The notes under the pieces are model-generated. The model was not told where the DNA came from. It saw only the letters and a program-made list of their open reading frames with translations, and made no database searches. A program made the position numbers and the translations under genes. From NCBI RefSeq assembly GCF_000003815.2, contig NC_049984.1, positions 15,115,048 through 15,179,047 of the forward strand: a stretch of DNA of 64,000 nucleotides, given 5' to 3'. This document shows positions 1,480 through 57,384 of this stretch, one piece after another. This stretch comes from Branchiostoma floridae (Eukaryota > Chordata > Leptocardii > Amphioxiformes > Branchiostomatidae). Position 1 is the stretch's first letter. Each line of letters opens with the position of its first letter.

Positions 1480-4250
1480 CACTTTATCTAATATCTGTGC
1501 CTTATTAATGTCTAGAGCATATACCTTTGTACTCTCTGCAATTCAAGCCATCTATCAAGTCCTGAGTCCTAAGATGAACCCAACTGCAAAAGTTGGCTGC
1601 AATTGTAGGCTCTGACCATTTGTGAACTTTGTGACTTTCCAACTGTAAGATTTAGTTTTCTCTGTGGGTTACCAGTAACATCTCATCACCTTCTTCAGGG
1701 CTTAGGGGCTCTTATCTTAAAACTGGAGTCTTACTCTGTTTGACTACATCTATACTTTTTACACCAAACAGATTCTCAAAGGTGTTATCCTTCACTCTTG
1801 CTGTGAACACTCATTACTTACATGTATGTAACCCTGTCTTACATGAAGCACTGGGTATTTGGAAATACTCCAAAGTCTTCGCCGTCTCAAAGCAGCGGGC
1901 AAAGATGGTTAGACCACTGGTGAGGGAAAAGGCTTTGAGGTGATTCACAGGCAAAATATTAATCTCTGTTATTAATCTCTAGAGCATATAGCTTTGTACT
2001 TTGTACTCCCTGCAATTCGAGCAATCTATCAAGTCCTGAGTCCTCAGATGAACCTATTCTAAAAGTTGGCTGCGATTCCTGGCTCTGACCATTTGTGAAC
2101 TTCGTGACTTTCCAACTGTAAGACTTAGTTTTCTCTGTGGGTTACCAGTAACATCTCATCACCTTCTGTAGGACTTAGCAGCTCTTATCCTCAAAATGGA
2201 CTCTTACTCTGTCTGACTACATCAATACTTTTTACACCACACAGATTCCCCATGGACTAATCCTTCACTCTTGCTGTGAACACTCATGACTTACATATAC
2301 AACCCTTTTCTTATGTGTAAAACTGGGTATTTGGAAATACTCCAATGTCTTTGCCTTTTTAAAGCAGCGGGCAAAGGTGGTTAGACCACTGGTGAGGGAA
2401 AAGCTTTGAGGTGATTCACAGGCAAAATATTAATCTCTGTTATTAATCTCCAGAGCATATAGCTTTGTATTCCTGCAATTCAAGCAATCTATCAAGTCCT
2501 GAGTCCTCGGATGAACCCAGTTTCAAAAGTTGGCTGTGATTGTGGGCTCTGACATTTATGAACTTTGCTTTCCAACTACAAGTTTTTTCTGTGGGTTACC
2601 AGTGACATCTGATCCCCTTTTGTAGAACTTAGTTAGCAGCTCTTATTCTCAAAATGGAGTCTTACCCTGTCTCACTACATCAATACGTTTTACACCACAC
2701 AGATACCCAATGGACTAATCCTTCACTCTTGCTGTGAACATTCATTACTTACATATACAACCCTGTCTCTTATGTGTAATACTGGGCACTTGGAAATACT
2801 CCAATGTCTTCGCCTTTTCAAAGCAGTGGGGGAAGGTGGTTAGACCAGGCCACTTGTGAGGGAAAAGGCTTTCAGGTGATTTATAGGCAAAATATCAAAT
2901 CTCTGTTATCAATCTCTAGAGCATATAGTTTGTAATCCTAGCAATTCAAGCATTTAAAAATCTATCAAGTCCTGAGTCCTCAGATGAACCCAACTGCAAA
3001 AGTTGGCTGCGATTGTGGGCTCTGACATTTATGAACTTTGGTTTCCAACTACAAGTTTTCTCTGTGGGTTACAATTGACATCTGATCACCTTCTACAGGA
3101 CTTTGGGGCTCTTATCCTCAAAATGTAGTCTTGTACTGTCTCACCACATCAATACTTTTTACACCACACAGTTTCCCCTGGACTATTCTTTCACTCTTGC
3201 TGTGAACATTCATTACTTACATATACATTTGTACAACCCTGTCTCTTATGTGTAAAACTGGGCACTTGGAAATACTCCAATGTCTTTGCCTTTTCAAAGC
3301 AGCGGGCAAAGGTGGTAAGACCACTGGTGAGGGAAAAGACTTTGAAATGAATTACAGGCAAAATATTAATCTCTGTTATTAATCTCTAGAGCATATACGG
3401 TAGCTTTGTACACCCTGCAATTTAAGCAATGTATCAAGTCCGTAACCCAGTTGCAAAAGTTTGGCTCTGACATTTGTAACCTTTGCTTTCCAACTGTAAA
3501 TTTCCTCTGTGGGTTACTGGTGACATCTCATCACCTTCTGTAGGACTTAGGGGCTCTTATCTTAAAAATGGAGTCTTGCACTGTCTTAAAACATTAATAC
3601 TTTTGACACCACACAGATTCCCCATGGACTTATCCTTCACTCTTGCTGTGAACACTCATTACTTACAATGTACAACCCTGTCTGACATGCAGAACTGGGC
3701 ATTTGGAAATACTCCAATGTCTTCGCCTGTGGTTAGACCACTGGTGAGGGAAAAGACTTTGAGATGAATTACAGGCAAAATATTAATCTCTGTTATTAAT
3801 CTCTAGAGCATACAGCTTTGTACTCCCTGCAATTCAAGCAATGTATTAAGTCCCAAGGCCTCAGATGAACCCAACTGCAAAAGTTAGCTGCGATTGTTGG
3901 CTTTGACATTTGTAACCTTTGCTTTCCAACTGTAAATTTCTTCTGTGGGTTACCAGCGACATCTGATCCCATTCTGCAGGACTTAACAGCTCTTATTCTC
4001 AAAATGTAGTCTTACCCTGTCTCACTACATCAATAAGTTTTACACCACACAGATACCCAATGGACTAATCCTTCACTCTTGCTGTAAACACTCAATACTT
4101 ACATTTACAGGTTGACTACAACCCTGGCTTACGTGCAAAACTGGGCATCGGGAAATACTTCAAAGTCTTTACCTTCTCGAAGAAGCGGGGAAAAGTGGTT
4201 AGACCACTGGTGAGGGAAAAGGCTTTGAGATGATTTACTGGCAAAATAGA
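1480..4250. repeat. satellite-like tandem array, ~468 bp unit, about 6 copies
   Basis: The landmark AGAGCAT begins at 1514, 1981, 2452, 2918, 3388 and 3805, giving unit lengths of 467, 471, 466, 470 and 417 bp. Each unit also holds CTGTGGGTTACCAGTGACAT, TTTACACCACACAGAT and GGTTAGACCACTGGTGAGGG in the same order. Copies look roughly 85-90% alike by eye, with small indels. No gene is seen. It directly follows the unrelated ~145 bp array, so the first 4.3 kb is a compound satellite block. Confidence 0.9.
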
Positions 4251-6428: not shown

Positions 6429-9400
6429 CTTCTGTGATGCCCCATTGAGAAGTCCTCTATCCCAGAGTGCCTTGTTGCCGGTGGGATCCTCGTCGACCTC
6501 GTCCGTGACCCCTGCTGGCAGCCTCACCATGGACAGGTTCCCAAACTTGTCACCTGAAACACACATACATTCTTTCTAAATAAATACTGTAAATGCAGAA
6601 ATGTTCGCGGTGGATTTATGTTAGCGGTTTTCGCGTTGGCCATCTCACAACGAATTTAAAACCACCGCGAACATTTTTCCAGGGCATTAAGATACTACAG
6701 TGCATGGTGCTACCGCGAAATTAAAACCACCGCGAAAAGTCCATTTTCCCGCTACCGCAAAATTAGATCTCCGCGAACTTAAATGCATTTACAGTACCCA
6801 ATAAATCAATGTTATGGTCAATACTCAGATCTCTTAGGTTATTATGGAAGCTTCACATTTTTATTCTTGTATTTGTAACATAAGAATTAAAGAAGTTAGT
6901 ACTAACTGCTAGGTTTATCTTATTATCACTTTAACATGATGGAAAAAGGAGTCATTCACAGCCATTCCATTGTTGTCTTTCTAATTGCTTTTAGTATCAA
7001 ATCTATTCTGTAATTGCCTTTCTTTGTTGATGAAAAATCACTGAGGAAAAAATCAATGCGTCTGCCGTAATATCTACCCATTGTATTGTTTTCATAACTG
7101 AACATTACCGTCAAAATAGAACACATTGAGCATTCCTCATCTTTGTGCCATAAGCTTTTTCTTTATTGCAATTTTGTAATCTGAGCGATTTTAATAACCT
7201 CGGACATGGCAGAGAGGTAATGATCTACTGTAAATGCAGTTAATTTAGTTTACTTTCGCGGGATTTCCTTTCGCAGGAAAGTTTTCGCTGTGGTTTTAAG
7301 TTCGCAGTAGACTGCAATCTCATACTACAATTGAAAAATGTTCACAGTGTTTTTAAGTTCACGGTGAAGCGGTCATCGAAAAAAACGCGTACATGTAACC
7401 ACCGCGAACATTTCTGCATTTACAGTATTTGAACTCCAAATATTTCCCTCATTAAAACTGTCACCATAGTAAGCACTTGCAGGAAAGCTAAGAGATCACC
7501 ATAGAGACAATCACTCCGTTGCCCTTTTACCGGTAAGTGAAAAGAAATGGTAGGGATTCAACTTTGGCAATTTCAGCTGCTTTGTACTAGATTGCTTTAA
7601 GTTAGCACAACCCATCTCCATGTTATATAAATGGGAACAAATATCATAGATTAGCTACCTCAGGTAACAATCAGTCTTCCATGAAATGAACAAATAAAGC
7701 AAAATTGCTTTCCATTTTACAACCATTCTACTAAGGCAACAAAAATAGAACAAATTACTATACCAGGGTAGTATATAAAATCTCCATGCTCATTACTGAC
7801 AAAATAGGAGAGAATGTTTTTATCATTAGGCCATACCAAATTTATGTGTTGCTTCTCGGATTTTTCAGAAAAAAATTGGACTGACAGGTAAAAAAAAATC
7901 TTTTCAAAATGTCTGGGGCAAAGATATAAGGCTAACATAAAACAAAAAGACAACAGCCTAAGGAGTTTAATTAATGGCACGTTTTATGCAATGAATCCCT
8001 TCCTTTGATTTGTTACTAATGTCTGAATAAAAGGCATCGTTTTTAGACTGAAATTATGTGTATGTGGCTCTAAATTGCAATATTTACAGGTTTGTGATAG
8101 TAAAACCTGTTTTATTTTTTTAATCTCAGGATACCTTAGAATATACCATTTTAACTTAAATTTCTCGAAAACTCTGCACCATGGAAGGTGGATGCCCCGG
8201 ACCCCCTACAATAGTAGTGCCCATATCACTTACCGAGACTCACCAAGAAATTTGGACCCCCTATAATAAGATTCTAGCTAAAAGCCTGACCTGCGGCCAC
8301 AGTGTCATAGTCCAGCTGTGTAGAGCAGGTGATCCAGCGGTAGTTGGTGTCATCAGAGAAGATGATGAGCTGGTTCTCCTGTCGCTTGTACCGGATGAAG
8401 TGGAAGGACTCCTGAACATCGCTCACAAAGATGCGGTGCCCCATGGTGTGGATGGACATGATGAAGTTTGGCACGTGCTGCAGGAAATTTCAAAGTTCAA
8501 CTTACTTGAAATATTGGCAGTGGTTAAAATTTTCCCAGTTTTTGGTGTGACCGCTCCATACCCAATTTATGTCACCATGAATGTGTCAATACTTCTGTAC
8601 TTCAGTATAGAACTGTGAACTTTCAAAACACAGCAAAATATTTCATTTTCCATTTCTACCGAAATGTTAATTTAGAGTACTATACTTGCATGTCATCGAG
8701 TAAGAATCCTAGTACCATATATCATGACACACTTTTCAGATCTACTGAGGTTCCAAGGCTGCAGTTCAACAACATTTACAGCACGAAAAAAACACTGCAT
8801 CATATGGCAATAGAACGTTAATATTGTTTTGAAAAAGATTTGCCAACTTGATAACACCTGCAAGTTCAACAGAAGTGACAAACTGTATCAGGCTCAGGGC
8901 AAGGTGGTACATTTGGATGGTGTGACACTTGGGCAAAAGCACGATGAGGTCAAAATTTGAAAGTTGATAGCCATGTTACTCCTATACTCTATTACACAGG
9001 GATAGTCCTAAAGCTGTAGATTAAGGATAGGATACTCTGTATAATAAGAATACATTCATCTTACGGATTACTACCAACCTTGTTCTCACACTTCCTGAGC
9101 AGCTTCTTCTTGCCGAGGTCGTAGATCCGCAGCAGTCGCCCGATCCCCACCAGTATCCGGCCCTGGAAGGAACTGATGGCTCCTGGGACATCCTCTACTG
9201 GTGTCTGTGGGAACATTATTGTAAAGGTACAAGGCTCAGAACCAGCTTTTGTTATCAATCCTTTTACCTGATTTATGTGACAGGTAAATTTTCAAGACCA
9301 TGCCATACTATAAGGTTTTGACCCACTCACACCAGGAGTGGGTCACACCCACCCCTACTTTTATGTGTGGTAGGTTTTGAAACATGTTTGAGGTGTGGCT

Positions 9401-12400: not shown

Positions 12401-15400
12401 AATATCTAAAGAGGGACTGCAAAATAATTGGGCTATAACTCATAACTATAATGAGAAAGTGTGACTTCTGCTGTAAGTTTTTTGGACTGAACTGCCCTTA
12501 CCTCAGCCATCTGTTGTTTACGCTGTGCCTTGGTGGCCTCGGTATAGCTGTTGTGGTCTGTCTCGATCATGATGATGTTGTTACTCTGGGTGTCGATCAC
12601 GAACTTACGGGGGGTGTACATCAGGGGGGTGGAGATCTGGTTAAACACAGCTCCCAGTTTCTCTAGGGCCAAAATTCTGAGGGGAAAAACAACAAATTAG
12701 GATTATAGCAGAAAAGTATGCCAGCAATGTTTACTTGATTATATTAAGATTTTGTGGAAAATCACCCAAAATCAGGATCATAGAAAAAGTAGAGTGGAAT
12801 TTGTTATCACCAAGAGTAGGGGCAACCTAATTAAATAGCTTTAAACAACACTTTGAATTTACATAGATTAGGTGTGACAGGATAGGTAACAAAACCACCT
12901 TCTGCTGCCCTGCCCAAGTCGGTATGTTATGCCAAAGGGCAGCTATACTGGCAAATACAGACAAAAGAGTAAATTTGAAGTTTCATTGTATAGGGACATG
13001 GATTAAGTATTAGACTACTTGAATTCTTTTTTTTTTAAAGAATCATCTCCATTTTACTGGCATCATCATCGTATCAATATTTCAGATTATTAGCATAACT
13101 TCTTGGTCAGTCAGTTGAGTGATCATATGGTAAACCGAGACATGAAACATACAAAATACATGATGTAGCAGGGAGTCTTCCACCAGTGGGACTGCACACC
13201 CATGGAGGAATTGGTATTTCCCTGCCCAATCACTCTCCCTTCCAAGAACCAATGCCAGGGGGCTGGGAGTCACCGACCAGCAAGGTAAGAATATAGGAAG
13301 GGTAGTGGTCATTGTGTACTGAAGATGTCACACAGCGTTCATTCTACTATTTAGCTCCCTGAAAAACTAGTCTTCCACTGGTCGTGACAGAGAAGACAGA
13401 CGCTATGTACAGTATTTACTCTCACCTCTCAAATAAACGTACCGGTACGTTTATTTTTTTCCGCCTCAAAATCCACTCGGTACGTCCTTATTTTAGACGG
13501 TACGTTTATTTTTTTTTTCAAATTGAGGCTTTCTTTACTAACCAGGGACCCCAAAAATATTGAAACTTTGGTATTTTCTGCCCATATTTCCGCTGTATTT
13601 TTGCTTAAAATTCACTATTTTTCGGACGAGGCAGCGCGGATTTCCCTGCCGCTAGCGGTATGACCCAAACATCCTAACTAGGGATGCGTACCGGTACGCC
13701 GGATCGGTGCTGGATTTGCAAAAACTTTTCGGTTCATGTCCAAAAATAAGTGATTCGGTACTGCACTCACATATATCCTTTTTGTTTTAGACCATATTTA
13801 ACCTTCCAAAAATCTTGAAATTTGCGCTGAACAAAGACGAAAACATTGCCAAACATCAAGGTCCATAGGCCGAGCTCAAACACATGCTACACACACAGTC
13901 ACTCAGATCCGTAAATTCTCGATCAAAACACAGAAATTAACCACCAACCAAACAAACTAAAAAGTTACCAATACTTTTCCACTATTTTTCACCCGTAGTC
14001 AACTTGTTTTAATGTTCCAGCAACAAAAAAATCCTTCCAAAATAAAGCACAGCGTTCAATCGGCTCGAAAACATCCGCCATGTTGGATTTATCAACTCAC
14101 GCCGAATCTCGCGGTAATGCGCGAGAGAATGAATATTTTCTGCAGTACCGTTATCTTTTAATAGGGGGCAGTGTCTATGACCTCCTTGGTTTCTGCAACA
14201 TTGAAAATAGCACAAGTGGTGAATAAAATATGGTATTCTACTAAGTTGGAATGTTTCTTCAAAATGTTATTTTGTAACAATGATTATAAAATAAAGTTCT
14301 GTTTTTATTTCTTCAATTTTTATTTTCATTCATTTTTTACTTTTATTATAATCTTTGTTGATGTTGTGACACTCAGATAAAGAAAAAAAGTGCAATAACA
14401 TAGGAATTATTCTGTTCATTATTTATACAATTAACTGATATGGTACTCAGGCATAAATGAATAAAAAGAGCCTACCTGCTTATGACTGAAGTAGCATGAG
14501 CACAGTTTACATGTCAATTTTGTATTTTTCCGGGGGGTACTTTTATTCCAGGGGGTACTTTTATTAAATTTTGAAGATTTGTCCGGGGGGTACTTTTATT
14601 CCAGGGGGTACTTCTATTTGAGAGGTGAGAGTACATGTTCATTGTATTGGAGACATTCCCCTAGCTCTTTTGGACAAGCACAATGAACAGTAGACCACAG
14701 CTTAACTTGCCATCCTAAGGACTACAATGCCTTTCTTGTAGCATGGATGTCGGGTGAGCGACACAGCCAAAATCAAACTCAAGACTTCTGGTTCCAGAGG
14801 CAGGGCCACTATCCACCAGACTATGCATGCCACATGACCTATGCACAGTTGTTTACCCTGATACCTTTGATGTGCAAGTTTTACAACAGTTACTGTACTT
14901 TCCAAATCTTCACTTTTTCTGTTCCACCGAATCATTGATATAGACTTTATGTCACTTGAGCAGGGTTCGAACTACACATACTTATCTTGCAATTTGCACA
15001 TAATTTTTGAGATTTGCATGTAAAATTATTCTGAACTTGCAATCTTGCATGTTGAAAATACCTGGCCTATTGGAAAAATACTGAGGAATTAGACCCCCTA
15101 CTCTTAGACAAAAAGACAAATGGATGTGTGTCTTTATTCTTTCTTGTTTTTGCCAGTAACTTTCTCTGGTAACTTTACTAGATGTAATCAAAATTCACCG
15201 ATTCAAGCTAGCGATACTCGTCACCATCGCTGCCTAGTTGTATTTTGCATGTAAATTTTTCAAATTGCACGTAAAATTTTTGCCAACTTGCAATTTTGCA
15301 TGTAACAAAAAAAAAGTATTTCGATCCCTGCTTGAGTCTGCAAGGTACTGTTTGCCCACTCCAAACATATCTGACAGAGAACACCTCCCACCAAACACAA

Positions 15401-18400
15401 AATCAAGTCTCTTCAAACTTGAGAATTTATAGTACTCACCTGAGTGTGTTAGCAGAGATGGCTACGATACCCTCTGGACACTGTTCTGAGGCGAAGCCCG
15501 AGGCGTACTCCAGAGTCTCGTACGACAGGGGGGTCAGGTGGAACCGGTTCTGGTACGTGTAACTCAACCACGACCGACTGGACATGGCCAGAACCTACAA
15601 AACAATAACATCCTTGCCGTTACAAAAAAGTTGAGATATATGGCTGGAACAGCAGTATGGGACTATGACAAACACTTTATTTGCAGGTATACAAGTCTGA
15701 ACCATTTTCCAAATATGAAGGGGAATCGTGAGGATGAAAATGACGGAGTAGGGAGAAGGTAAAAAAAAAGGAAATATTATAAGTTGCCGGTAATTTCATG
15801 TATGGTCTTACTGTAAATGCATTTAAATTCAATGGTATTTTGTGGTACCATAGACTGTAGTCACATACTACAATGGAAAACTGTTAGTGGTGGTTTTATG
15901 TTTGCTGTGAAGTGGCCACTGCAAAAAACGCGAACATAAAACTACTAGGAACATTTCTGCATTTCAGTATTTTCATTTACAAAAAGTCTGCAACTTTTAG
16001 ATTAAACATTTGGAGGTACTGAGGAAGTCTTAGAGATTGTACTTACAGCTTCGTTGCCCTGCATCTTGACTTGGAAGAGTTTGACAGGCCGGGAACCGAG
16101 GTACCGTGTGCGCGTGTCCGACAGGTCTCCTGTTATCTGGTCAAGCACTGTTCTCAGGAGCACACCATTCTACAGGGACATCAGAGTGAAACACATTGAG
16201 TCAGATTCTAATGTTGCAAAGCAATTTACCCCAAATCATAATGCAGAATAACAACAATGAAGAACTTTCATGGAGTTGGCATGAGAAATTTTGCTTAACA
16301 TTTTTGTAGAGATTTTTCTTCCAGTCTATCACAATGTACTCAAAAGTTATATTACATACACCAGACTTAGAGAGAGACTGCTAGCAACTTACAGGCAGGA
16401 ACTACACAAAAGTTTCATAATACATGCAGGGCTCCAGACTAACTTTTTGACCTAGGAGCGTGGCGCTCCTAACTCTTAAAACTTAGGAGCGCCAGCAAAA
16501 AGTTAGGAGCACAAGCTAACGTCTTAAGCCATACAAAGTATTACTCCAGGACCTATAAATCAATGTTTTAAACCTGGAATTAAGTATTTGCATAGATTAT
16601 AACAGAAAAAGCATTGATCCTGTACAAAATGCTTGTTTGAACCTTTATTCATGAATGCTCAAATCAGCCGGCGTGTTGCTTGATTTTTCTAATCGCGGAT
16701 TAGTTCTGCAGCCATTACTACATACATTGTATAAACCCACGTTTAGGTTCAGGTCCAGATAAGAATCCGGAGTTTACTTTTAGGTTCAGGTCCAGACCTA
16801 ATGAGTCCAGACCTTAATCCATGGCATTGAATATTAGGGGTGTTACACAGTAAGGCAGTAACCAAACAAGAAACAAGAAAATACATGAGATCATTTTCAA
16901 GTAATATAACACTGATTTCTTACAATATAATATTTCATGAGTTAATACATACAATCAGGGAAAGTAAATTTATCTTACTGCCAAAGGTTAAACTTGACTG
17001 CTGTTACATATACAACAACAACAAACTAAAGAAGTCTACAAGAAAATCTGCAAACCAACAGAGGAGAAAGTGTAGCCAGGACTGTCAGGTACATCTTGTA
17101 TTTCTTTTGTGTATCTACTTTGTTAAGAATATAGCTGAAAATAGATGCACTAAAAAATTAGAGGTTTACTTGTAGCCTGTAACATCAGTGTTAACTTATA
17201 TAGAAAAATCTGTGTACAAACAGTTCATTATTTCAGTTGAAAAAATATAGCAAAAAAGATGTGTTCGAAGGGCAAATTAAGCGAACTTTTTCCAACAAAC
17301 AACATCCATTTATCAGTCTTTTGAAAATAAAGACTACAACAAAAGTTATATCTCAAGGAACCGTGAAAAAATCGCGACCTCCGTTCAACATTTTCTACGA
17401 ATTCAGTGCCGACACCGAACCGCCCCCCTCCCCAGTTTGTCATCGTCACATTAGCTGTTGTTTTTCCCGCATTCCACCGACAAAAAAGCACAAAAAAACT
17501 CCAAAACAATCCTATACATGTACTTATCACCAAGGACTTTAGGCATTCGATGAGTTTTCGTCAAAGTTACACGCTTTCGAAGCTTTCCTGCGTGATTTTT
17601 CCCGCGAAAACAGCGGGGATATCAGATATTCCACCAATAATGGCGGCCGGGCGAGCTACGTCACGCCGAAATGGCCAATGGGGTGCGACTCTCGCAATTC
17701 GCGAGATGTGAGTTACTGCGAGACTTGCGCGAGATTTGAATTAGAATCAAAATGGCGGCTCGGTGAAAGGCGGAATCGGCAAATTTTGAACTTTGAGCGA
17801 AGTTTTCGGGGGAAAATAAGGGCGTACCAAAGGCGTACATCCAAAAAACAGGGCGTACATTTTGTGCTTTTTTAGCAAAGGCCGTACATTGTACGCCCGT
17901 ACGGATGGCTAGCTAAAAGCCTGCCTGAACCGAAACGTTTTTGCAAGTCCAGAACCGGTCCGGCGTACCGGCAAGCTTTATGTTTTGCTCATTTTTTATT
18001 GGCGCGCCGTGCGACCATCATTTCAAAAATAGGCGCATTATTAAAATTACGGTCGCGATGCGACCAAATCTAGTCGCAGTCACGAGCCCTGACATGTAAC
18101 TTTTCACAATTCTGCTAGATACATGTACAACCACATTACAAAAATGTCTTGTCAGTCTTAAAACCTGTACAGCTTGAGTGTATAATTTTTGGATGCTCAA
18201 TTAGTATATCACTTTAGATCCACTGTTTTTATAAAGTGGTGGTCTTATGGCACATTGTAAAAGAGTTGGCATTAAGAGATATAGGAGAAGAATATGAGCA
18301 GTACAGGCAGAATAAACATAAAGATAAGAAGTGTTAGTGTGCGTGTAGCAGGGAGTCTTCCACCAGTGGGACTGAACACCCATGGAGGAATTGGTATTTC

Positions 18401-21400
18401 CCTGCCCAATCACTCTCCCTTCCAAGAACCAATGCCAGGGGGCCGGGAGTCACCGACCAGCAAGGATAGAGGAAGGGTACTCAAGATACTACAGAGAGCT
18501 TTCAAACTATGACAGTTGTCTTTCATAAATTAGCATTTAAGTTCATCCGTGCTGGAATTTTTCTTCAAAATTCAAGTGACCGATTACCAAGGCCATTTAT
18601 ATCTAGACACACCAATCTTCACTTAACAGAGATGGCCATTGGTAGGAAGTTCCTGGCTGTTTTGACCAATTGACGATGCCATGTATTACGAAAAGAATTT
18701 TTGATTCCTGTATATTTTCTTTAACAGTTACCAACACCAACAGCACAGAGCAGAAATCTTGCTAGATTATAGTAGATGTGCAAAGGAACAGGAAGTTCGA
18801 TGTTGTACGATAAATTGTCACATGTAAAGTAAAGCTGGTTTGCTAAGCTGAAGGGCAGCAACATTCTTCCAGTTTAACAACACAGATACACTTTTACCTG
18901 ATAACAATAGAGGTATGGAAACTGTATCTTGTTGTACTGACCTGTAAGCCAATGTTGAGGAACAGCATAGTGTTCCTGGGCCCGGTGTCGTCGATGCCCT
19001 CTCCCCCTCCCATCTGTAAGATACACAGGGACTCCGGGGTGGCTGGGAGGGCCTGCATACTCAATGGCTGCAGGCAGTCCTGAGGAAAAACAGTAACAGA
19101 CCAGTCACTTCTTCAACTACACTACTGGATGCATCTCTTTGGATGTGTGCACCCCCTAGTGATTCACACGAAAATTGCACAAGGTAATCCCTTCTAAACT
19201 ATGTCCAAAGTATGTGGTGAAATTGTAGCCCATATTCTATCAAAAAACCTTATTAGCAGCATCACTGTAGGGCATGTTGTCTAGAGATGAGCTACTCTGC
19301 CTCTGAGCAACTAAGGTTTAATGCAGGATGTTGTCACTCAGTCAACTGGCATGCACTTCAGAGAGTCGCAGGTCTTAGAAGAAACACCTTAATACAAGTC
19401 TGGGGGCATCCACCTTCCATGGTGCTGAGTTTTTGATGATTTTCAGTTAAAGCAGTGCATTCTAAGGTATCCAAAGAGGCAAAAATACTGTTACAGATGT
19501 CACAGTAGAAGACCACAGATGACCTGGTATCATCCCTGGTCAATCAGAATTTCATGCTTGTCAGAGGATTTTCTCCCCAGTATAGGGCGTCCAGGGGCAT
19601 CAAATTTCTTGTTATTCTAAGAAAGGTGCGTCCAGATGACGCGTTGACGCATGCCTGGCTAATAGCCTGACCTCATTGTTGTACACAGAAGATTAACTAC
19701 AGTCTTTTCAAGTACTGTGATAACTACTTTATACCCGGACTACTATTGGGGACGGGGGTCATGGACAAATACTGTGTTGAGACCTTAAGCTGTGGTTCAC
19801 CTTTCATTGTAATAATTGTAGAAAAGAGCTAGGGGAATTTTCGCAGTACACTGAACCTGTATTTACTGTTACAGAAAACAAAGCATTCGTCTATTCCATG
19901 ACAACCTATGGAAGATTTGTTCTTCAATGAGCTCAACTTATTTGAGGTCACTATCATTTTTCATTATCTTCTTGATCTGAACTATCTACTATGTGTCATA
20001 CTTACTGCAGGGTCGAGGGAGATGATTCTAACGGTGTCATCCGTGAGACCGACAGCTAAGAACCTGCAGCGCTGCTCCCCTACTGGCACGTTAGCCAGCG
20101 CCATACAGATCACTTCTGCTGACATCTCCTTACGTTCTGTGTACTCGTTTAGCTGACCAGTCTGGTGGGGTAAACAACAACAATGGACATGTTAGCCAGC
20201 GCCATGCAGATCACTTCTGCTGACATCTCCTTACGTTCTGTGTACTCGTTTAGCTGACCAGTCTGGTGGAGTAAACAACAACAATGGACATGTTAGCCAG
20301 TGCCATACAGATCACTTCTGCTGACATCTCCTTACGTTCTGTGTACTCATTTAGCTGACCAGTCTGGTGGGGTAAACAACAACAAAAACAACAACAAATC
20401 AATACAGACAGACATCTGTCATGATTTGTTATCTAAAATTTAGATGAATAATGTGACAAATCATTCATGTGACAGTGCAAAGCTAATGTGTTATGACAGT
20501 TATACGGACAGTTTATACTGGTTGAGCAATTTATATTCAGTTGTCAAGAGCCTATTAGGTTCTGGGATTATCCAGAAGTAATGCTACGGTCCCATTATAA
20601 AAAAAAAAAAGGGGCCCCTCCAGGTAGTTTTATATGGCCTCCTTCCATCAATATTGACCATGGTAAAATCCTTATCAATATCAGCCCTTCAGTATGAGAA
20701 TGGCAGTCATTGCCACATAGGGCACATCTGTAAACTGACACAGGTCTGTTGCAAAGTTCTTTTCTCTGGATCCGCTTTTCTTCTGCCATGCGCATCAGTC
20801 TGGTTGCTCTTGATTTAAGCTGCCTGGACAGTGGATCTGTCATTTGCAAGGTCTTCTCAATGCTCCAGGTAGTTTATGGCTTGTTTTTCTGCACTTTTGG
20901 GCGGGACCACTATGTGGCCCCGTATGACACCCTGCCGCTACTAAGCTTGGGGTCCCTGTATTTTTTTCATCTCATAGTTAAAATCAACCTGGGACCCGGC
21001 AACAAATAGATATCCCAACATGAAGGAAAAAATACAGCAAGGTAGTACTTACAGGGTCCATCTCAAAGTACACCAGCTCGCCTCCAGTCAAGGCTATCAC
21101 TACCTGTCTCTGGTTCACTGCACACTTGACGATGGTTTTCTTGCCGGGCGTTCTCCACTCGTTCACACGTTTGTCTGACCTGATGTGGCGGATGCCTTCT
21201 GGGTAAATCTGACAGAAACAGAAAATGATCCCTCTAAGTCTAAGTTCATATTAAAAATGATTTTATAGATAAGACTAAGATTCTCTCAACCTGCTGATAG
21301 TTACCAAAAAAAATAAGGTTGTAGAACTCGCCCCACTATGATGATGGACATATCATACATGACAGGGGGATTTCATTGTTGGAAAAACATCATACTTTTG

Positions 21401-53831: not shown

Positions 53832-54800
53832 CCTCTGTGTTGTTTAAGGTCAACCTTTACCGTTTAAATGTCCTAGAACTGGGCATCGTCGGCTAAAGTT
53901 GCCTTTCCGTATTCTTCCGCTTGTCCTAGCTTACATGTAGCACTTCAGTATAGCAGAACTGCAGCTCGTGACCGTCAGCGACAAGTCTTCACGCTGGCTC
54001 CATAAGGTTGAAACTGTCGAGGATAAACGGTAAGCAGTGGAGCGGAGAGTTGGCGATTCTTTACGGTGAAACGTGAGCGCGGTTGTAACTACTTTCGTGG
54101 CAGCCCAGGCGTGTAGGGCTGAGAAAACACGCAGGGGACGTGCGATCGCCAACCGCCTGACGTTACCACTGGGAACCCGGGGTCGGTTCTGGAACACGAG
54201 TGTTTGCACAGTCATTTATCAAGAGAAACAGAGACCTTTCACCGCACTCTAACGTTTGCTGTTGCATACGACTACGTGAACCAAAGTCTTAGTCTCCAGA
54301 CGGCTTCATGTTGAATGACGTTCCGTCTTGACACCACACATCGTACCAAAGCAGGTGTCACCGCATTCTCCGCTCCCAATTGGGCTTATAAAACTTATAT
54401 ACCACTCTCGTACTGGTACCCGCAGGTGTCAAAAGGAATGAGCCGGGCGGGCTGAACCAACACCACGTCCGGTGTAAAGAATAGCAGGAGTCTTTGTGCC
54501 CGGCGCTGTTTGTGTATTTACGTGTGCCTTGTTAACCTCGCGTTCGGTGGATGGCTTACCTTGTGCGGCTATTTATTCTCCGGCCTCGCGGCATAGGTGA
54601 GTGGGCAGGTGAGGTTACAGGTGAGGGGTTTGCGTTCCTCCTCAGGTGAACTGGAACCGAGACGGAATTACAGGTGACACCTTACCCCGCACGGCTTAAT
54701 CAAACCAGCACGACATGTAATCCGGCTTCTTGTAAACAACCCTCGTGTCGCGACTAGCAAGGTCGCCTGGAAGAACGGGCCAACACGAGTCAATAGAAGG
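53832..54800 (-). promoter_or_regulatory. upstream region of the ANKUB1-like gene with CAGGTG cluster
   Basis: GC-richer than the surroundings, with no TATA box seen. CAGGTG E-boxes occur at 54355, 54423, 54606, 54618, 54643 and 54671, four of them within 71 bp. CAGGTG is the core bound by Snail/ZEB and E-protein factors. The first exon and start site of the gene are not visible from sequence. Confidence 0.4.
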
Positions 54801-54802
54801 AA

Positions 54803-55112
54803 CGGTTCAGAATGGTTAAGAACGGCTTAGAATGGTTTATAATGTTATAGAACTGTTTAGAATGATTTAGAACGGTTTATAATGGTTTAGAACGGTTTAA
54901 AATCGTTTAGAACGTCTTAGAACTGTTAATAATGGTTTTGAATGGTTTAGAACGGTTTAGAATTGTTTAGAACGGTTTAGAAAAGTGTAGAATTGTTTAG
55001 AACTGTTTAGAATGGTTTAGAACGGTTTAGAATGGTTTAGAACGGTTTAGAATGGTTTAGAGCGATTTAGTATGGTTTAGAATGGTTTAGAACGGTTCAG
55101 AACGGTTTAAAA
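54803..55112. repeat. 10-bp tandem minisatellite, about 30 units
   Basis: Units are GGTTTAGAAC or GGTTTAGAAT. In the best-preserved part (about 54945-55070) C and T types alternate, giving a 20-bp higher-order unit. Edges decay into single-base variants. The repeat matches the helical pitch of DNA, so the same face carries the same bases along about 300 bp. Confidence 0.9.
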
Positions 55113-57384
55113 CTAGGCACGGTATAGAACGTGGACAATCTAAAACTAGGCACGGATTAAAATTCAAGCTCACGATATGTCAAAGTTTGCGATATGTCCC
55201 ATTATTTCACTACAGTTTCTCGGCAATTAGGGAACAGCAGGTGTCTTGCTATAGGCTGCCTTGAGTGTAAACCGGACGCGAATCTGTAGTCTACTACAGT
55301 AGTAGCACTCAGGGAAAGAGCATTGGTTTTACAGATAAAAATAGTGAATGAATGACCCCATATTACCCCAAATAGAACGCTCGTTCTGTTTGAATTACGT
55401 CATATCGGTCATGGTTGTTGCATTCGAAGTGTAGTCTACTACAGTTTCTGTTTACACCCGGTTCGAAGTCTCATAGAACTTACGCTGTAGCGCACTTAAT
55501 TAATAGTAAATTATACTACTAGTATGTAGAATGTGTAATATTTATGATAAAAACATGTCGTTTCGTTATATCGACAATGAATTCCCTCACGTAAGAGATA
55601 TGGGTAGCGCTGCAAAAATCTATATTCCTGATAATATTTGATATACCAATAATAGCTAAACCCGTATATAATACTAAAGTGGTACATTTCACCATGGAAA
55701 AGCGAGAAGAAGCTTAACCTACTTGGTAACGTTAGCTATAGAATACGATAATTGTGCCAAAATGTGTATGCAGTATATGTAAAAATGTCTTTGCTGTGAC
55801 CTACGGTCAGCAAAGGTATGCTAAAATGATATCTACATTCATTATTGTATTAGCATTACCATTCCAGAATATCAAAATATTATGTTTCTGCCTTATCTAG
55901 GCTTCGGGTATCTGACACAAAGAACGTGTGCTTGTGAGAAAACTTCAAACTATAGATGGTGGTGATTTCAATGCCTATACAAATGTTTTCATCTTCTTCT
56001 AGTGTTAGATTTCGATGCATGTGATGGAAATGACGGAATGAGTTTAATACTTGGATCCATTCAGGTGCAATAATTGGTAATTAATATCTGGTACGTTGGA
56101 CTGTACCTAAATGATTTTTATAGATTGGATTATTGATTCAGTCGGTGATACATCGCAGCTACCTCTACACAGTAGAAGATGCTGAATTGTGCATTTTAGA
56201 CACTGTACTTCATATGTAAAATCTAGCTCTAAAAATACAGTTACAAGAAATCTTATTATAGGAATAAAGCAAAAAGAAACAAAACAACTTGTTATTCAAA
56301 GTATAAATAAAGACTGTAACAGTGGATTAAGAGATATGGGAGATGTTTTCAGGTATATGTATTTAAAAGGTGAGTGAAGTATGGGATGGGGCTGTTTTTA
56401 TAGCGGTTAGTTATATACCATAACCGGTACACAGTAGCTGTACACATCCCTAACTGTTGATTAGGTCAAGTGAAGTACAAACAAACTTACCTCTGCCTGG
56501 GAGATGATACGTTGGACTTGCGATGCTTCATGTCCAAACTGTGCGGGATCTTGAGACGTAATAGCAGGATGTTTGACCTAGAGGTCCTGGGTTCGAATCT
56601 CTCGCTTGTTGATATGCTTCCGATCTTGTGCCCTTTGGAAAGGCGCTGGACACGACTTTCCTCACTTCAATCAGGTGAAAATGAGTAGCTACTGCTGTCC
56701 CTTTGATAGGGTCTTAAATGGAGGTCCCGAGTTTGATTCGAGCAACACTTCATACACGTCAAAGAACCCACCACACTTCTCGAAAACAGTAGGTGTCCTT
56801 CCCGATGTGAGTGGATCAAACTTTACAGGTTGGTTTTCCGCGGCCGGTTGACATTTTGAAAATTTGACAGTACACCTGCTATGTTAATCCGTCAAATAAA
56901 GTGATCAGTTTTCCTAATACGTTTTCTGTTGTCTCGTTCTAAGACCTGAGACAGCACATTACTTATACGCTCCTCCTTGAAGCCTTGAAGTGTCTCAATG
57001 TCATTCCTTTGACTAGTGTGGGAAATGTCAATTAAAAATAACTGAAATTGATCAGTTTTCGTATCCTGCTGTCTCGTTCCATTTCACTGTTCTAAGACAG
57101 CAAATAAGTTAAGCTCCTACTTGAAGTATTCAAGTGTCGCAATGTCCATCGTGTGATATATCTCAATAAATAAATGAATAAATGAAATTTATCAGTTTTT
57201 GTATTCTACTGTCTCGCTTCACTGTTCTAAGACAGCGAATCAATTTAAGTTCCCTCTTGCACTGTCTGTCTCAGTGTCAATCCTTCCACTTCTGTAGCAA
57301 ATCTTAATGAATAACTAAAATTGATCAGTTTTTCTATTCCACATTCTGCTATCTCGATTAATACAGCAACTTACTTCACGTTCC
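55113..57384. other. intergenic upstream of the ANKUB1-like gene and downstream of the GPCR
   Basis: AT-rich. 55160-56540 shows no gene. The right part holds an S1 SINE (56545-56835) and a tandem array (56895-57400) that reaches the GPCR stop codon. Confidence 0.6.
56545..56835 (+). mobile_element. SINE S1, most complete copy
   Basis: The tRNA-like head has CCTAGAGGTCCTGGGTTCGA (B box GGTTCGAATCT) and a weak A box. The body has GATCTTGTGCCCTTTGGAAA, GACTTTCCTCACTTCAATC and TTAAATGGAGGTCCCGAGTT. The tail has AAAGAACCCACCACACTTC, GAAAACAGTAGGTGTCC and TTCCCGATGTGAGTGGATC. No clear target duplication. Confidence 0.75.

Follow-up and report, generated by a model that had tools for sequence, protein, structure and literature searches.

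In the Branchiostoma floridae genome, the acceptor of exon 13 of SF3B3 is present three times in tandem, raising the question of whether the extra acceptors form an evolved switch or are the tolerated product of a young duplication. We analyzed a 64-kb stretch of DNA (the window) in which SF3B3 lies on the minus strand, its identity coming from a match of the exon body to PDB chains annotated as Splicing factor 3B subunit 3. The 51-aa exon 13 query aligned over its full length with these chains (E 1e-22), corresponding to residues 571-621 of 5o9z_w. Using tblastn with an approximate human protein query as a guide, we built a GT-AG exon model in which 22 coding exons run from 29573 down to 8291 and translate without any stop, and the next exon begins at 6553. 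Skipping of exon 13 would keep the frame, with the loss of 52 residues.

A match to the C-terminal part of SF3B3 lies at least ~3.3 kb left of the window start (L025:6475-6711), indicating that the gene extends past the window; this match has stops at its start, so that its exon limits are tentative. Between the last SF3B3 exon in the window and this outside match there is a tandem array with a period of 473 bp (1502-4248; 6 copies, 80% matches by TRF). Two plus-strand ORFs within SF3B3 introns (13123-13296 and 18285-18512) have in common a near-identical peptide stretch of at least 10 residues, which suggests that both derive from the same dispersed repeat.

The exon 13 array was delimited by TRF at 20090-20385, with a period of 101 bp, 2.9 copies, 96% matches and a score of 564. 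Each unit carries a full acceptor, CAG/ACTGG (cut at the slash), followed by the first 72 bp of exon 13, as a preliminary description of this locus had stated, and the acceptors, designated C (20363), B (20262) and A (20161), are spaced exactly 101 bp apart. The same description took the units to be exact copies, which they are not, as copy C differs from copy B at 4 of 101 positions. It also read 29 bp between the exon-like parts as former intron: 22 of these match the intron above acceptor C, but the other seven, ATGTCCA, do not and are filler. The duplicated segment is thus 94 bp long (22 bp of intron end with its acceptor and 72 bp of exon start), with 7 bp of filler added. Because the filler is identical at both internal junctions, we infer that a first duplication with its filler was re-amplified as a 101-bp unit. 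The copies lie head to tail across a genuine splice site, as predicted by homology, and the array is something other than chance sequence. Coordinates of these and other features are collected in Table 1.

Table 1. Features of the SF3B3 exon 13 region, in window positions; a slash marks a splice cut.
Feature	Position	Strand	Basis
Coding exon 12, donor CCT/GTAAGT	21053..21208	-	gene model
Intron 12	21052..20162	-	gene model
Coding exon 13, 156 bp, phase 0-0	20006..20161	-	gene model and PDB match
Copy A, first 72 bp of exon 13, acceptor A at 20161	20090-20161	-	TRF, gene model
Copy B, acceptor B at 20262	20162..20262	-	TRF, acceptor strings
Copy B, exon-like 72 bp	20191-20262	-	
Copy B, intron-like 29 bp ending in acceptor A	20162-20190	-	
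Copy C, acceptor C at 20363, original intron retained upstream	20263..20363	-	TRF, acceptor strings
Copy C, exon-like 72 bp	20292-20363	-	
Copy C, intron-like 29 bp ending in acceptor B	20263-20291	-	
Original intron end, 22 bp, the duplicated intron part	20364..20385	-	TRF limit, string comparison
TAA ending the frame after acceptor C	20250..20252	-	translation; position from strings
TAA ending the frame after acceptor B	20149..20151	-	translation; position from strings
GGCTAAC, branch-like (branch A at 20192), 31 nt upstream of acceptor A	20191..20197	-	crude branch scan
GGCTAAC, branch-like (branch A at 20293), 31 nt upstream of acceptor B	20292..20298	-	crude branch scan
TATTGAT, top branch candidate for acceptor C (branch A at 20399), original intron, in predicted hairpin	20398..20404	-	
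Cryptic donor AAC/GTAAGG of copy C, exonic side ending at 20336	20330..20338	-	donor score
Predicted intron hairpin, 9 + 6 bp, -16.3 kcal/mol, immediately upstream of the T-rich tract of C	20393..20430	-	folding
Predicted long imperfect hairpin, acceptor C paired with B, A outside	20235..20389	-	folding

Over the 72 coding bases, copies A and B differ at one position, A and C at two, and B and C at three. As previously noted, all three of these differences are synonymous; each is a third-position transition. Two occur in C only, both being CpG changes if A is the ancestor, and the third occurs in B only. The fourth difference falls within the tract of acceptor B, so that when each acceptor is counted together with its own tract, A has no private changes and B and C have two each. 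Under five simple mutation models with A as the ancestor, differences that are synonymous throughout would arise with a chance of 0.010-0.028. Most likely, the coding differences are old allelic variants of a single-copy exon that were joined by unequal exchange; another reading is that the copies are translated. A coding divergence of 1-3 per 72 is within the range of lancelet allelic diversity when compared with the SNP rate of 4.39% given for the Chinese lancelet (PMC4284660).

A search of the genome (513,431,437 bases in 431 contigs) returned one array locus, and no second SF3B3 exon 13 locus was found by DNA among the best-scoring candidates. Likewise, the best candidates from a protein search with exon 13 held just three matches, which are copies A, B and C. 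Origin of the 101-bp unit from a dispersed repeat was considered and rejected, as BLAST against the window returned the array and otherwise weak matches of 12-25 bp. To place the array among others in the genome, we surveyed 20 sampled 10-kb stretches, comprising 182,075 non-N bases and 17,925 N, with one stretch all N. Four non-overlapping arrays with a period of 40-500 and at least 90% matches were found, or ~22 per Mb, two of the four being 51-bp arrays in a single stretch (L020). Narrowing the period to 60-300 left two arrays (~11 per Mb), and the window itself holds one such array in 64 kb. At ~22 high-identity arrays per Mb, the supply of duplications is ample, and some should cross acceptors by chance. 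Elsewhere in the window, TRF also reported a 10-bp minisatellite, GAACGGTTTA, with 31 copies and 75% matches (54800-55113).

The consequences of using each acceptor were followed by translating possible splice paths. We followed eight paths, one to each acceptor and five through the cryptic donors of copy B or C, all with intron 12 spliced and the donor of copy A unused, together with exon 13 skipping. The reading frame stayed open in one of the eight, the path using acceptor A alone, and all seven others end in a premature stop, bearing out the earlier statement that A is the sole frame-keeping acceptor among the three. The 13-residue tail and stop quoted for both upstream acceptors hold for C; the product of B begins TGQ before reaching its stop, and its 13-residue tail is a different one. 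In-frame use of the extra copies was also rejected, since the two non-A paths that change the length by a multiple of three (129 nt) both run into a stop, as do all five paths that use the cryptic donors of B or C. A stop upstream of later introns leads to nonsense-mediated decay (NMD) by the usual rule. In the gene model the premature stops fall upstream of later introns, so NMD of these products is predicted. From the exon start, both wrong frames reach TAA within about ten codons, indicating that such stops need no selection.

Splice signals in the copies were scored with an acceptor matrix built from the other acceptors of SF3B3, the real ones being scored leave-one-out. Acceptors A, B and C scored 9.05, 9.38 and 9.05, within the 0.0 to 15.0 of real SF3B3 acceptors, and the longest T-rich tract belongs to copy C with the most distal acceptor, in agreement with the preliminary description. 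A crude branch scan, with assumed and not fitted weights, placed the same heptamer, GGCTAAC, above acceptors A and B, with no AG in between. This heptamer was formerly coding sequence for Ala-Asn, suggesting that copied acceptors bring their own candidate branch site from the former exon. The cryptic donor AAC/GTAAGG of copy C recurs in copies B and A, where the last exonic bases are 20235 and 20134. Its score of 5.95 compares with 2.2-11.4 for the 22 real SF3B3 donors, and it is not rare, as 71 of 1,472 GT sites in SF3B3 score at least 5.95. Donor, branch-like site and acceptor are thus all present inside the copies, as consensus matches.

Predicted RNA folding gave a further possible account of how the copies might be handled. 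The junction CCAG/ACTGG is a near-palindrome, which means that two copies can pair together, and acceptors C and B may by such pairing hide each other and leave A open. In the full fold, the tract and acceptor of C pair with the region of B while A is left outside. The 20235-20389 fold has a z of -2.41 (4/200 shuffles as good) and the 20000-20430 fold a z of -1.91 (3/100 shuffles as good). The C-B pairing was kept at both temperatures tried (25 and 37 C), for three sets of flanks and for pair spans of 150, 250 and unlimited, and limiting the span to 100 nt abolished the masking pattern. At a span of 150 nt, the branch A of acceptor A is itself mostly paired. When 23 regions lying 75 to 15 nt upstream of acceptors were ranked by stability, the region of C came first, with those of B and A next. 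The hairpin at 20393-20430 covers TATTGAT, the best branch candidate of C, and is one of 12 places in SF3B3 with a 40-nt fold of equal or greater stability.

Varying the number of copies in silico gave a mean AG openness of 0.68 for one copy, at most 0.01 for both of two copies, 0.00, 0.01 and 0.67 for three, and 0.00 for all of four. Five copies gave 0.00, 0.01, 0.25, 0.17 and 0.25 and did not follow an odd-even rule. When the folded segment took in 150 nt upstream and 200 nt downstream of A, leaving out acceptor C, A itself was closed (0.01). Closure does not mean disuse, since 4 of 20 other real SF3B3 acceptors are also folded shut (<0.05). When the triplication was imposed on other SF3B3 exons, the masking pattern appeared in 0 of 19, with 12676 pairing its second and third copies; this control excluded 20161, whose upstream region already holds copies B and C, and 10218, whose 50-bp exon is too short. 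Among codon-shuffled versions of exon 13, the pattern appeared in 1/100, and the first two acceptors were hidden in 15/100.

Three identical units gave openness values of 0.29, 0.09 and 0.30 with no clear winner, and C-B pairing was unchanged (0.62-0.66) after each single reversion of a copy difference. Reverting both C changes weakened it to 0.53, and reverting all four left C-B (0.29) and B-A (0.28) pairing equal. Selection for A as the open acceptor is unsupported: when identical copies were given four random transitions, A was the open one in 36/300 and C in 45/300, which gives A no special standing. The controls of these modeled folds are mixed, and self-masking by paired acceptors, a hypothesis only, seems to us very unlikely. 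If true, it would mean that the duplication neutralizes its own poison sites, with their use dependent on copy number.

The preliminary description had raised the idea of autoregulation, in which the level of SF3B3 or SF3b would shift splicing between the productive acceptor A and the decayed products of B and C in a negative feedback. The stops in all seven non-A paths, the synonymous nature of the copy differences and the non-productive splicing known for rodent Sf3b3 (PMC5062968) would fit such a scheme, but the rodent event is of a different kind (a cassette exon), the three acceptors score alike, and stops in both wrong frames would arise without selection. The proposal is not supported by these results, and we regard it as distinctly unlikely. 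Gain of an intron in progress, with a cryptic donor in C or B joining a later acceptor to remove 73-nt mini-introns, would draw on a donor that is present in all copies at a score inside the real range, on the branch-like site and acceptor downstream of it, and on the similar anatomy of a potato RNA-dependent RNA polymerase (RdRp) gene (PMC4974935). The stop in every enumerated path through the B or C donors and the many equally strong GT sites in SF3B3 count against this outcome, which is very unlikely.

An assembly artefact would leave one true copy, with the rest produced from merged diverged haplotypes or by repeat handling. An array of ~300 bp would fit in one Sanger read of usual length, the copies differ at four positions, and both internal junctions have the same filler; the last two points weaken this rival of the earlier description in part. 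The B. floridae assembly described in PMC7269912 was made from ~tenfold Sanger reads and HaploMerger2, and if the present assembly is that one, two diverged haplotypes were merged in it. The single locus says little on this matter, as a haplotype-merged assembly would also give one locus. Overall, an artefact is unlikely.

The neutral duplication that had been offered as a rival to autoregulation fits best. We favor, with a probability of about 0.7, a recent and near-neutral duplication over the exon 13 boundary, in which A is the productive acceptor, B and C are leaky poison sites, and the array is probably polymorphic. In this sequence of events, a tandem duplication would have crossed the boundary between intron 12 and exon 13 and been followed by one further amplification. 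In the sequence as it stands, copy C follows on the original intron end, and the exon body bears a copied acceptor, A. In carriers, the spliceosome would use acceptor A with the formerly coding GGCTAAC as its branch site, and part of the transcripts would be mis-spliced to C or B or through cryptic donors and cleared by NMD. The array would have no evolved regulatory role, being tolerated and probably still polymorphic. The single genomic locus, the ~22 like arrays per Mb and the precedent in potato (PMC4974935) count in favor of this account, as do the open frame of the A path alone, the lack of private changes in copy A, the filler common to both internal junctions and a coding divergence within the allelic range.

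Two considerations stand against a young, near-neutral duplication. Copy C adjoins the original intron and lies nearest the donor, so that scanning would favor C, in which case a homozygous carrier would make mostly decayed message. In addition, all-synonymous differences are not predicted for a drifting non-coding copy unless they predate the duplication. Taken together, the array is real as assembled sequence, and a young, tolerated duplication is more likely than an evolved switch. It appears to be a recent example, from an animal, of a whole acceptor copied by duplication, located in the single SF3B3 gene found in the genome, the gene for a core subunit of SF3b. Carriers, if the array is real in the population, would offer a natural test of which of several near-identical acceptors with unlike branch sites the spliceosome picks, and of the way in which cells tolerate poison sites in a gene of their own splicing machinery.

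Among the papers searched, none contained Branchiostoma together with SF3B3, and comparison was made with related systems in other organisms. In the same gene of the mouse, a cassette exon of Sf3b3 containing a premature termination codon is included more in differentiated smooth muscle, and cycloheximide raises its inclusion in rat PAC1 cells, as described in PMC5062968. The rodent non-productive isoform is linked there to NMD, and is made with a cassette exon, whereas the lancelet gene has competing copied acceptors. Near intron pairs in Drosophila are reported to arise by tandem duplication with exonic proto-splice sites (PMC2891723). As in SF3B3, tandem duplication supplies the new splice sites, although in Drosophila the duplicated coding segment carries a proto-splice site, while in SF3B3 a real acceptor was copied.

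The closest likeness is in anatomy, to the potato RdRp gene PGSC0003DMG402000361, where an intron was gained by tandem duplication over an intron-exon boundary, with an activated GTAAG donor, an inherited acceptor and RNA reads for the new intron (PMC4974935). In the account given there, as in lancelet SF3B3, the duplication spans a 3' splice site and copies an intron end with an exon start, the former exon holds a cryptic GTAAG donor, and the acceptor and pyrimidine tract are inherited. The potato gene has two copies and a new intron seen in RNA reads, whereas SF3B3 has three copies in the assembled DNA, and none of the paths enumerated through its extra copies keeps the frame. The putative branch site of the potato intron comes from the parental intron, while the branch-like sites above acceptors A and B of SF3B3 come from the former exon.
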